A stretch of 32,345 bases of DNA. Source: an uncultured Verrucomicrobia subdivision 3 bacterium (lineage in GTDB: Bacteria; Verrucomicrobiota; Verrucomicrobiia; Limisphaerales; UBA11358). Where the stretch lies: NCBI GenBank assembly GCA_903827955.1, contig CAIKKJ010000160.1, forward strand, positions 1-32,345, given 5' to 3'. How positions within the stretch are numbered: the stretch's first letter is position 1; the number at the start of each line of letters is the position of its first letter. Below are positions 16,510-21,363 of this stretch, one piece after another. The translations under genes were made by a program, and so were the position numbers. The notes under the pieces are model-generated. The model had not been told where the DNA came from, ran no database searches, and was given only the letters and a program-made list of their open reading frames with translations.

Positions 16510-17292
16510 TTAGTTTAGAAACGCCGTCAACGGACTCGTCGCGCTCGCCGTTTCGCTTTGCGTGCCCAGCCCGATTTCATACGCGCTGCGCCCCGCTTCC
16601 ACTGCGTGCTTGAACGCGATGCCCATGCGGTTCGGGTCGTTCGCCACGGCGATGGCGGTGTTCACCAGCACGGCGTCCGCACCGAGTTCCATCGCCTCCG
16701 CCGCGTGGCTCGGCGCGCCGATGCCGGCATCTACGACCACGGGAACGGTCGCCTGTTCAATGATGATGCGGATCTGGTCGCGCGTCTGGAGGCCGCGATT
16801 CGAGCCGATGGGCGAACCGAGCGGCATCACCGTCGCGCAGCCGACTTCCTGCAAGCGTTTCGCCAGCACCGGATCGGCGTTGATGTAGGGCAGCACGGTG
16901 AAACCTTCCTTCACCAGAATCTCCGCCGCCTTGAACGTCTCAATCGGGTCGGGCAGCAGGTAGCGCGGGTCGGGATGGATTTCGAGCTTCACCCACTTCG
17001 GCAAACCGGCGGCAACGGCCAGGCGCGCGAGGCGGACGGCTTCCTCGGCGTTCATCGCGCCGCTGGTGTTGGGCAGGAGCAGATATTTTTTCGGATCAAT
17101 GAATTCGAGGATGTTCGCGAACGGGTCTTTCTTGCCGGACAAATCCGCGCGGCGCAGCGCGACCGTGACCATTTCCGTGCCGCTGGCGGCGAGCGCATCG
17201 CGCATGGCTTCCGGCGACGGAAATTTTCCCGTGCCGAGAATCAATCGCGAATGGAACTCGCGTCCGGCAATGACCAAAGGTTTGAACGACAT
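16510..17292 (-). CDS. thiG: Thiazole synthase ThiG
   Basis: ThiG builds the thiazole phosphate of thiamine from deoxyxylulose phosphate, ThiS-thiocarboxylate and dehydroglycine, with ThiH or ThiO as partner. The 260-residue reading from [13 protein letters not shown] has the TIM-barrel landmarks: [35 protein letters not shown], the Schiff-base lysine in [15 protein letters not shown] (Lys102), [13 protein letters not shown], and [20 protein letters not shown]. The frame is open further upstream to 17430, but that stretch has no family similarity, so the ATG at 17292 is used. No thiS or thiH is adjacent, which is unusual. Confidence 0.93.
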
Positions 17293-17391: not shown

Positions 17392-17420
17392 TTGACGGGT
17401 GAAAACCAAAACTTTAGCTT
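17392..17420 (+). promoter_or_regulatory. Candidate nusA promoter
   Basis: TTGACG (17392-17397), a 17-base spacer and TAGCTT (17415-17420) lie in the thiG-nusA divergent region. Transcription would start near 17427, just upstream of the structured leader. Confidence 0.4.
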
Positions 17421-17425
17421 GCTCG

Positions 17426-17501
17426 GACAAAGCGGAGTCGGCTGGGTTACCAGCGAGCGAAAGTCGGAGACAAAAGTCTTTCCGGCTTTTTTATTCGCCG
17501 G
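17426..17501 (+). promoter_or_regulatory. Attenuator-like structured leader before nusA
   Basis: The leader can fold into a small hairpin GCTGG-gtta-CCAGC (17441-17454), then a terminator-like hairpin 17462-17487 (AGTCGGAGAC with GTCTttCCGGCT, including a two-base bulge and a G-T pair) followed by TTTTTT to 17492. The strand CCGGC (17482-17486) can instead pair with GCCGG at 17497-17501, which would destroy the terminator. This competing pair is the classic layout of transcription attenuation. Ligand or protein is unknown; autocontrol by NusA is only a guess. Confidence 0.45.
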
Positions 17502-17531
17502 AACCAGAGCCAAGACCCCGCGTTCAGAGTT

Positions 17532-18797
17532 ATGAATGCTGATTTTTTAGCCGGACTGGAATTTTGGGAACGCGAAAAAGGCGTCAGCCGTGAAGTGCTC
17601 ATGGCTGCCGTCCAGGAAGCGTTGTTGCAGGCCGCCAAGAAGGCCGTGGGACCCGCACGCGAACTCCGCGTGGTGATGGATTCCAAGAACGGTGACATCA
17701 AGGCCTTCGCCAAACTCATTGTCGCGGATAAGGTAATCTCACAGCACGATCAAATCTCTGTGTTCGATGCACGGCGCATCAAAGCCGATGCAAAGGTTGG
17801 CGATGAAATCGAAAAAGAAGTCACGCCCCAAGGCTTCGGCCGCATTGCCGCGCAATACGCCAAGCAGGCGCTCATGCAAAAAGTGCGTCAGGCAGAAAAG
17901 GCGCTCATTTTTACTGAATTCAAAGACCGTGTGGGTGACATCGTCAGCGGCACGGTGCGCCGGTTCGACCGTTCAGACGTGATTCTTGATCTCGGCAAAT
18001 ACGAGGCGCTCATGCCGAACAAGGAACGCGTGCCGACGGAAGAATATCAGGTTGGCGAACGCGTGCGTTGCTACGTCAAAGCCGTGCAGGAAGGGCCGCA
18101 CGGGCCGGAAATCATTTTGTCCCGCGCCGACCCGCGGTTCATCATCAAGCTGTTTTCCGTCGAAGTTTCTGAAATCAGCGACGGCACGATTGAAATCAAA
18201 GGCATCGCGCGCGAACCCGGTTTCCGCACGAAGATGGCCGTGTATTCACGCGATTCAAAAGTCGATCCGGTCGGTGCGTGCGTAGGCATGCGCGGTCAGC
18301 GTGTAAAAAATATCGTCCGCGAACTGAACAACGAGAAGGTGGACGTGATTCCGTGGTCATCCGACATCCGGGCGTTTGTCACGAAAGCCCTTGAACCGGC
18401 AAAAATCCGCAGCATGGATCTCGACGAACGCAGCAAGCGCGTGAAAATTTTGGTGTCCGAAGACCAGCTTTCGCTCGCCATCGGCAAGCGCGGCCAAAAC
18501 GCGCGGCTGACCGAGAAATTGATTGGCTGGGGCGTGGAAATCATCGCCGAGCAGATCGTCACGAAGGGTTTTGATGAACAGGTGGCGGAAGCCGTCACAC
18601 AGATCGCAGCGATTCCGGGCATCACCCCCGAACAGGCGGATGCGCTGGTTCACGCCGGTGTCACGAAGCTCGAAGTTTTGTTGTCGGCGGAAGCTGGCGA
18701 CCTGGCGGACATCCCCGGCATTGGTGAAAACGCCGCCGCGATTTTGGACGCCGCGCGCGCCGAGGCCTCACGCCGTTCGGCGTCCGTGAACAGCTAG
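17532..18797 (+). CDS. nusA: Transcription termination/antitermination factor NusA
   Basis: NusA binds RNA polymerase and nascent RNA and modulates pausing, termination and antitermination. The 421 residues contain the N-terminal polymerase-binding domain (about 1-130), an S1 domain (about 135-200, GDIVSGTVRRFDRSDVILDL), two KH domains with GMRGQRV (from 252) and GKRGQNARL (from 318), and a C-terminal helix-hairpin-helix region (GITPEQADALVHAG, IPGIGENAAAILDAAR). It heads the translation-factor cluster. The usual upstream rimP is missing: the 239-base gap to thiG cannot hold it. Confidence 0.96.
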   Translation: MNADFLAGLEFWEREKGVSREVLMAAVQEALLQAAKKAVGPARELRVVMDSKNGDIKAFAKLIVADKVISQHDQISVFDARRIKADAKVGDEIEKEVTPQGFGRIAAQYAKQALMQKVRQAEKALIFTEFKDRVGDIVSGTVRRFDRSDVILDLGKYEALMPNKERVPTEEYQVGERVRCYVKAVQEGPHGPEIILSRADPRFIIKLFSVEVSEISDGTIEIKGIAREPGFRTKMAVYSRDSKVDPVGACVGMRGQRVKNIVRELNNEKVDVIPWSSDIRAFVTKALEPAKIRSMDLDERSKRVKILVSEDQLSLAIGKRGQNARLTEKLIGWGVEIIAEQIVTKGFDEQVAEAVTQIAAIPGITPEQADALVHAGVTKLEVLLSAEAGDLADIPGIGENAAAILDAARAEASRRSASVNS

Positions 18798-18891: not shown

Positions 18892-21363
18892 ATGCCTCGT
18901 CGGATTTACGACATCTCGAAAAAGCTTGGTCTGGACAACAAAGTGATCCTGGCCAAAGCCAAGTCGCTGAACATCACTACCGCTAAGGTTCCGTCCAGTT
19001 CCATTGATAACATCAGCGCCGACTACCTCGAAGAGGAGTTGATCAAAGACCACCCCGAGGTCGCCGCGCGGTTCGCCCCCAAGCCGGTCGAGGAAAAGCC
19101 CAAGCCCGCACCCGTCGAGGAAAAAATCGTTCTCATCACCGCGCCGCCCACGCCACCGCCCGCGCCTGAACCGCCACCAATCGTCGAAGCTGAAGTCGAA
19201 GTTTACCCCGCACCTGCCGCCACGACCGCGCCAGCGATGGAAGTGCCGACACCCGTTGTCCCGCCGCCCGCACCAAAGCCAGCGGCACCGGTCGCGCCCC
19301 CTGCCCCGCCCAAACCGCAGATGGGAGACAAGGTTGGATTCATCCAGCTTGCACCGCGGCCGGGTTCCGCCCGCGGTGGCGATCGCAGCGGCGACCGTGC
19401 CGGTGCGCCCCAACCCCAGCAGCGTCCGCAGCCGGGAGGCCGGCCGGGCCAGCCACAACGGGGTGATTCACGCGGCTCCTTTCAGCGCGGCCGTGATGGT
19501 CGCCAGCAGTTTGTTTCACAACCGGCCAAACCAGCCGCACCGCAGCAGCCAAAAATCTCCCTGCCGTCCGACGCTCAAATCATCACCATCAAACCGCCGA
19601 TCATCGTCCGCGCTTTGGCGGAAGCGATGAAGCAAAAGCCGTTTGCCATCATCGCCGAGTTGATGAAGCTCAAGGTCATGGCGACGGTAAATCAGTCCAT
19701 TGACGAAAAAATCGCCGCTCAGGTTTGTGCGCATTACGGCTTCAAATTTGAAGCGGAAAAACGCGCCAAGGGCGAAGGCGTCGTTCATCCCCCGGACAAA
19801 AAAGTTGAACTGGACGTGGACGACAAACCGGAGGATTTGAAACCGCGCGCGCCGGTCGTGACCATCATGGGCCACGTTGACCACGGCAAGACCTCGCTGC
19901 TTGACGTCATCCGCAAGGCGAATGTGGTCGCAGGCGAAGCCGGCGGAATCACCCAGCACATCGGTGCTTACACGATTGCCGTGCCGCATCCGGAGCGCAA
20001 AACAGAAATTGCCCAGATTACTTTTCTCGACACGCCCGGCCATGCGGCGTTTAGCTCTATGCGTTCGCGCGGTGCGAACGTCACGGATATCGTCGTGCTC
20101 GTCGTCGCGGCAAATGACGGCGTGATGCCGCAAACCTTGGAAGCGCTCGCACACGCGAAGGCGGCGAAAGTGCCAATTCTTGTCGCGGTCAACAAAATCG
20201 ACCATCCGAATGCGAACGCGATGAAAGTCCGCCAGCAGTTGCAGGACAAAGGTCTGGTGCCTGACGACTGGGGTGGCGATACGATTTTCGTGGAATGTTC
20301 CGCGCTGACCAAACAGGGCATTGATAAATTGCTCGAAATGATTTTGCTTCAGGCTGACTTGCTCGAACTGAAGGCGAATCCCGACCGCAATGCCAAGGGC
20401 AACGTTATCGAATCCGGCGTCTCGGCCGGCGGCCCGACGGCGACGGTGCTGGTGCGCAAAGGCACGTTGCATCTGGGCGACGTGATTATCTGCGGCGAGT
20501 TTTACGGCAAGGTGCGCGCGCTCATCAACGAAGAAGGCCAGCGCTTGAAAGAAGCCGGCCCGTCGGTGGCTGTCAGCGTGCTCGGTTTGAACGGCGTGCC
20601 GGAAGCGGGCTGGGAATTCAGCTCCGTGGACGACGAAAAAGCCGCGCGCGTTCTCGCCGAGGAGCGCGCCCAGGTCGCCAAGACCGAAGCCCTTGAAGGC
20701 CGTTCCAAGGTCACGCTGGAAAATCTTTTCGCTTCGCTTGAAGCCGCGCAAAGCAAAGTGTTGCGCGTCGTTGTCAAGGCGGACACGCAAGGTTCAGTCG
20801 AAGCCATTGTCGAGGCGCTCAAGAAGATTGAATCCGACAAAGTTTCGCTCGAAGTGTTGCACAGCGATGTGGGCACGATCACTGAAAACGATGTCGCGCT
20901 CGCGGCGGCGTCCAAGTGCGTCATCCTTGGATTCCACACACGCCTCGACAGCACGGCGGCGGAAAAAGCCAAGCACGCCGGCGTGCAGGTGAAACTTTAC
21001 GCGATCATCTACGAATTGATTGACCAGGTGAAGGACTCCATGGCGGGCCTGCTGGATCCCGACCTCAAGGAAACGATCGTTGGCTCGGCGGAAGTGCGAC
21101 AGGTTTTTGAATTGTCCAAGGGCATTCCCGTCGCCGGTTGCATGGTCAGCAACGGCCGCATCGTGCGCGGCAAAGTCCGTGTGCGCCGCAAAAAAGATGT
21201 CATCTACGAAGGCGTCACGCAGTCGCTGCGCCGTTTTCAGGACGAAGTCAACGAAGTGCGTTCCGGCATGGAATGCGGCATCCGTGTCGAAGGCTTCGGC
21301 GAGTTCCAAATCGGTGACAGCATCGAATGTTACGCTGTGGAAAAAATCGCAGCGAAGCTGTGA
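18892..21363 (+). CDS. infB: Translation initiation factor IF-2
   Basis: IF-2 is the GTPase that brings initiator fMet-tRNA to the 30S subunit and drives subunit joining. The 823-residue protein begins with an IF2_N domain ([20 protein letters not shown]), followed by a long Pro/Ala- and Arg/Gln/Gly-rich linker (about 65-225), a second N-domain (about 230-300), and the G domain: GHVDHGKT at 327-334, [20 protein letters not shown] and SAL. The beta-barrel and C-terminal tRNA-binding domains follow, ending near [14 protein letters not shown]. The ylxR and L7Ae-like genes often found between nusA and infB are absent; the 94-base gap holds no credible gene. Confidence 0.97.

Follow-up and report, generated by a model that had tools for sequence, protein, structure and literature searches.

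A conserved terminator before nusA-infB in Limisphaerales and its probable role as a transcription attenuator

In the window, the whole analysed stretch of 32,345 nucleotides from an uncultured bacterium of the order Limisphaerales (phylum Verrucomicrobiota), a terminator hairpin, P2, stands between a promoter and the operon that begins with nusA and infB. We propose that P2 is a transcription attenuator of nusA-infB, through which NusA probably exerts negative feedback on its own operon without the help of a switch. The hairpin is conserved across the order, and its core has been exchanged on both sides of the stem relative to the rest of the phylum.

The locus itself is simple. The nusA gene (17532 to 18797, forward strand, ATG at 17532) encodes 421 amino acids with NusA_N, S1, two KH and helix-hairpin-helix domains (Pfam), and matches TIGR01953 with 394 bits. 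Its product is up to 93% identical to NusA proteins from Limisphaerales, Verrucomicrobia subdivision 3 and Verrucomicrobiia records. The second gene of the operon, infB, encodes IF-2 (18892 to 21363, forward strand; TIGR00487, 742 bits), and the full gene order is nusA, infB, rbfA, a gene for an NrnA-like DHH protein, truB and ribF. Upstream of nusA lies thiG, which is divergent and has its likely ATG at 17292. The gap between thiG and nusA contains no upstream gene on the forward strand for which P2 could be the 3' terminator.

P2 (17460 to 17492, forward strand) consists of a hairpin from 17460 to 17489 and a U-tract of six T residues from 17487 to 17492. In the main stem, AAAGTCGG (17460 to 17467) pairs with CCGGCTTT (17482 to 17489). 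The upper stem pairs AGAC (17468 to 17471) with GTCT (17476 to 17479) around an AAAA loop, and TT at 17480 to 17481 is bulged. Because of the bulged stem, a simple terminator scan does not list P2; between 14000 and 24000 the same scan returns 13 terminator-like sites versus 18.1 from shuffles, which is fewer than chance. The fold of P2 reaches −14.6 kcal/mol (z = −4.0), a value equalled by none of 200 shuffles. Taken from the window sequence by itself the case for P2 is only moderate, and the comparison with relatives decides. An earlier note on this DNA had described a terminator-like hairpin with six T residues about 40 bases before nusA. This description is borne out: the structure can be read directly, the U-tract ends 39 nt 5' of the nusA ATG, and the 3' arm CCGRCT with its U-tract is present in all 50 leaders read, our own and those of 49 relatives.

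The well-spaced promoter that the note had placed at 17392 to 17420 holds up as well. It combines a −35 box TTGACG (17392 to 17397), a 17-nt spacer and a −10 box TAGCTT (17415 to 17420) on the forward strand. A simple consensus scan does not list this promoter, whose −10 box agrees with TATAAT at three of six positions. A TTGAC box nevertheless occurs 90 to 120 nt 5' of the end of the U-tract in 50/50 leaders. Transcription would start 7 nt past the −10 box, giving a predicted nusA 5' leader from 17427 to 17531 (forward strand), and an RNA terminated at P2 would then measure about 66 nt. From 17420 to 17531 the whole leader folds at −52.3 kcal/mol (z = −5.55 versus shuffles). Close to the presumed start site, at 17428 to 17437, AGAACGGTAAAG or ACAAAGCGGT is kept in many relatives; the AGAACGGTAAAG form presumably resembles a mycobacterial NusA-binding site.

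Between the promoter and P2 the leader forms a further hairpin, P1 (17441 to 17454, forward strand), with the sequence GCTGG-GTTA-CCAGC. P1 is found in this order only. Of the order's 106 distinct leaders, 84 have the arms GCTGG and CCAGC. The P1 region has a mean z of −0.82 in the order, whereas the value is +0.21 in 54 leaders taken from other orders and classes. In alignment A2 a UA pair of P1 is exchanged for CG in three of 43 rows (UA 40, CG 3). The stretch from 17427 to 17492 contains no ATG, GTG or TTG from which a leader peptide could start. We also rejected a leader peptide as a common feature, since among 134 loci of the order just 22 have an ATG between the presumed start site and P2.

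Within the order P2 is almost invariant. The comparison started from 59 genomes, the window's own and its relatives, of which 54 have a NusA match; the upstream region was read in 50 of these, and the four left out comprise three matches without a gene start and one at a contig end. A covariance model of P1 and P2, R2, was built from 43 rows. With an E limit of 0.01 and matches counted at any position, R2 hits 263 of the order's 320 genomes; of the 154 with completeness of 90% or more and contamination of 5% or less, it hits 144. For 80 named loci chosen by their NusA, R2 matches 79, all upstream of nusA; 77 are close to the gene, and L121 and L126 are somewhat further away. The 80th locus (L130) has no gene start. 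The same search yields 25 extra weak rows, 24 of them from this hairpin read on its reverse strand.

Of the order's 138 loci (109 of them distinct), 137 have a hairpin of −7 kcal/mol or lower followed by a T-run no more than 160 nt from nusA; of 231 dinucleotide shuffles passed through the same terminator finder, 26 do. The core of the stem is GUCGG/CCGAC at 97 and GUCGG/CCGGC at 36 of the 138 loci (together 133). One outlier, L199, has GCCGG/UCGGC, and in another, L004, the U-tract is broken as CTATTTT. Three metagenome bins (L060, L104, L126) are titled Methylacidimicrobium fagopyrum or Akkermansia muciniphila, yet carry NusA and a leader of the order's type; these titles look wrong. Within the window's own 3.86-Mb genome, the pattern AGTCGG-N4-24-CCGRCTTTTTT occurs a single time, at nusA. 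A search for further copies of the leader there gives nine R2 matches with E of 1 or less; the next best has E = 0.03, and none is strong.

Such uniformity has a cost. At the base of P2 none of the eight pairs in alignment A2 shows a two-sided change, and the covariation score is 0.081 for the structure versus 0.125 when the structure is slid by −3 columns. Since the sequence is nearly fixed inside the order, the order alone gives no independent proof of pairing.

The proof comes from the rest of the phylum. At the same thresholds, the terminator finder detects a hairpin before nusA at 35 of 39 loci from the class's other orders, a count to be set against the same shuffles. Among 40 leaders that come from other classes it detects 31. 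In these lineages the core differs from that of the order. Among the 39 loci of other orders it is GUGGG/CCCAC (18), GUGGG/CCCGC (8), GUGGA/UCCAC (3) or GCGGG/CCCGC (3), and among the 40 leaders of other classes GUGGG/CCCAC (14), GUGGG/CCCGC (7) or GCGGG/UCCGC (1); these cores, like those of the order, were counted with a pairing pattern and so in rows selected for pairing. The middle pair of the core is thus C-G in the order and G-C elsewhere in the phylum, an exchange on both sides of the stem. Alignment A4, which holds 85 of 98 available rows, has G-C in 45 and C-G in 40 rows at this pair and two-sided changes at five of seven pairs. That 99% of A4 is paired is circular, because its rows were picked for pairing.

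For a fair test, we chose the 3' arm alone, taking the one nearest nusA, and then looked for a partner within the preceding 30 nt. A matching 5' arm is present in all 157 distinct leaders that have a 3' arm (106/106 in the order, 32/32 in other orders, 19/19 in other classes), a set that excludes leaders without the 3' motif as defined (three in the order, 7/39 in other orders and 21/40 in other classes). Sought in the same way, an arm that would fit the exchanged middle pair occurs in nine of the 157 leaders, with about 13 expected by shuffling. The exchanged core and the 157 partner arms together indicate that the hairpin is selected for. Hence the compensatory changes for which the earlier note had proposed to search do exist: they separate the order from the rest of the phylum and hardly occur inside the order. 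In the phylum sample, under strict filters and with an E limit of 0.01, the full model R2, with P1 and P2 together, has matches in 25 of 387 genomes. Only the window's own locus and one of the same genus, among the 27 loci matched, adjoin a NusA gene, so the remaining matches look like chance terminators.

The leader holds a second, less uniform layer of structure. The parts that flank P2 (17427 to 17459 and 17494 to 17531) can pair with each other over a long range, in the window with z = −4.83. Shuffling the leader outside P1 and P2 weakens the fold, with a mean z of −1.36 over 106 leaders, 44 of them below −1.5 and our own at −4.91. We traced the signal to 35 leaders in which TTCGC follows the U-tract. 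Their long-range pairing has a mean z of −1.41 and falls below −1.5 in 14; in the other 71 leaders the mean z is −0.01, with seven below −1.5. When partners are swapped between species, the pairing of the 35 becomes weaker in all 2000 permutations and that of the 71 in 1950 out of 2000, a result to which common base composition and kinship may contribute. As predicted from the sequence, the long rod would keep P2 intact and so would not act as an antiterminator; it could form only after read-through. A CCCC..GGGG hairpin after the U-tract, seen by eye in other families, was rejected because its mean z is only −0.44, with 10 of 71 leaders below −1.5.

Leader terminators of this operon are known from other bacteria. 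The rimP-leader, described by Naville and Gautheret in 2010 (PMC2965389), is a short intrinsic terminator that lies in the 5' leader of the rimP-nusA-infB operon and has a GGGc(...)gCCC stem. Their description presents its general form without a visible antiterminator, offers RimP or NusA as the regulator with NusA as the best candidate, and calls this terminator the most ubiquitous attenuator (PMC2965389). The leader in the window shares with it a short conserved terminator before nusA-infB, a conserved stem sequence and the lack of a visible antiterminator. However, the operon here begins with nusA, and rimP is neither in the operon nor detected in the genome. The core of the order is GUCGG/CCGAC or CCGGC instead of GGGc..gCCC, and P1 is added before P2. 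Other orders and classes of the phylum come closer, bearing a G-rich/C-rich core (GUGGG/CCCAC or CCCGC, also GCGGG). In the Escherichia coli leader a TGGGCTTTAGGCCCTTTTTTT hairpin stands before rimP.

The Rfam family RF01770 (rimP leader) likewise describes a leader terminator of the same operon. In the window nothing reaches its gathering score, and between 17300 and 17600 there is no match even at E = 1. It exceeds its cut-off in none of 20 relatives, but this model of 102 positions also exceeds its cut-off in only one of 14 control genomes. No known RNA family was found in the window's leader. By position and behaviour, we would regard the leader as a variant that works like the rimP-leader, without filing it as a member. 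Our search of the literature, to which the species list in the supplement of the 2010 report did not belong, returned no earlier report of a nusA leader terminator in Verrucomicrobiota, and we found no end-mapping data (Term-seq, dRNA-seq) for Akkermansia in the literature.

RimP is the first regulator to consider, and it is not detected. RimP_N matches none of 40 relatives and none of 194 genomes of the phylum, and RimP_C exceeds its cut-off in none of 115 phylum genomes, with four weak matches below; each domain matches 10 of 14 control genomes. Of 145 genomes in the phylum sample, in contrast, 141 have a detected NusA. A very diverged RimP could still be present in the phylum. If RimP is absent, it cannot regulate P2, and its lack of detection argues against RimP as the regulator and leaves NusA as the leading candidate. 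Moreover, a phylum sample without detected RimP retains the terminator before nusA, an argument that the terminator can do without RimP.

NusA has a precedent in Bacillus subtilis: according to a 2025 review (PMC12288461), NusA autoregulates nusA there by stimulating termination in the leader, which sets how far transcription proceeds into the operon. Both leaders place a terminator between a promoter and the operon that encodes NusA. Regulation is shown experimentally in B. subtilis, whereas here it is predicted. Mondal et al. reportedly described the B. subtilis autoregulation in 2016 as working without antiterminator structures.

In the mechanism that we propose, RNA polymerase would start at about 17427 and copy P1 and P2. 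Some polymerases would stop at P2 and its U-tract and release the short RNA; the remaining ones would enter nusA, infB and probably rbfA, nrnA, truB and ribF. An antiterminator would be unnecessary, as the stopping share would be set by how well the hairpin performs. Since NusA stimulates intrinsic termination, it would enlarge this share, and high NusA would lead to less nusA-infB mRNA, that is, to negative feedback. The idea that a termination factor is controlled by termination in its own leader, raised before, thus keeps its core: a selected terminator between a conserved promoter and nusA-infB makes such self-control plausible, as does the mechanism in B. subtilis. Only its switch finds no support.

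That switch would let the 3' strand of P2 pair alternatively with GCCGG (17497 to 17501), in the part of the leader 3' of the terminator (17493 to 17531, forward strand); in a variant of it, the partner would lie in the upstream leader. In the window the pairing of CCGGC (17482 to 17486) with GCCGG, which also appears as the inverted repeat I2, can form: it reaches −11.6 kcal/mol (z = −2.5), and five of 200 shuffles are as good. Sixteen of 107 leaders of the order, including the window's own (−2.56), pair downstream at z below −1.5, against none of 35 from other orders. But all five pairs exist in eight of 106 distinct leaders of the order, where 6.4 are expected, and 272 of 1000 permutations with redealt downstream pieces match or exceed this count. 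The mean z is close to zero on both sides in the order: for the downstream partner −0.21 (+0.42 in the 35 of other orders), and for the upstream partner −0.02, with seven of 107 below −1.5 (+0.11 in the 35, two below). We rejected an upstream antiterminator, which gives no signal in duplex energy versus shuffles, and the duplex-energy test finds no conserved antiterminator in the 107 and 35 leaders. A mild excess of downstream pairing remains in the order as a weak tendency. In addition, a partner 3' of the U-tract would be made too late to stop termination there. We consider a switch very improbable.

Other explanations retain the terminator and change its meaning. A real attenuator might answer to a regulator other than NusA, such as IF2, a ribosome-assembly protein, NusG or a ligand, that reads P1 or the core of P2. 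The near fixation of the core at 133 of 138 loci goes beyond the need of a plain terminator, and P1 is an extra conserved hairpin of the order, yet the operon suggests no second regulator, the obvious candidate RimP is undetected and other orders keep P2 without P1; we think such a regulator unlikely. As a constitutive partial terminator, P2 could also do no more than define the basal expression of the operon, without feedback. While nothing in our analysis shows regulation itself, P2 persists in many families and, with an altered sequence, across the phylum, and the best studied counterpart, the B. subtilis nusA leader, is regulated; accordingly we give this explanation rather little credence. 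A chance hairpin would fit the failure of the simple scan to list P2, but is refuted by conservation (50/50, 263/320, 137/138, 157/157) and the single genomic occurrence, and the end of another transcript is contradicted by the divergent thiG. The chance of either is close to nil. Attenuation by NusA feedback therefore stays our preferred explanation, although it leaves the long-range pairing unexplained.

A more elaborate version would cover this pairing, and we offer it as a doubtful conjecture. The leader might be a two-layer NusA sensor specific to the order, in which the ancient core flipped from GUGGG/CCCAC to GUCGG/CCGAC and was frozen together with the new P1 because NusA or a partner reads the sequence. 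In the clade with TTCGC, read-through RNA would additionally refold into the rod and govern the fate of the nusA-infB mRNA.

The order amounts to a natural double mutant of the core, so that NusA reading the sequence versus mere hairpin stability is now directly testable. If the feedback is real, negative feedback on a general termination factor via its own terminator is common to very distant bacteria. It would be a known type of control, here in a lineage without detected rimP, the usual neighboring gene.

The NusA proteins themselves (17532 to 18797 in the window) also differ between orders. Changes specific to the order could, but need not, accompany the changed core of P2. Twelve positions that are nearly fixed in 97 sequences of the order differ in 19 from other orders; K183 and R303 are two of these positions and lie within or close to the S1 and KH domains.
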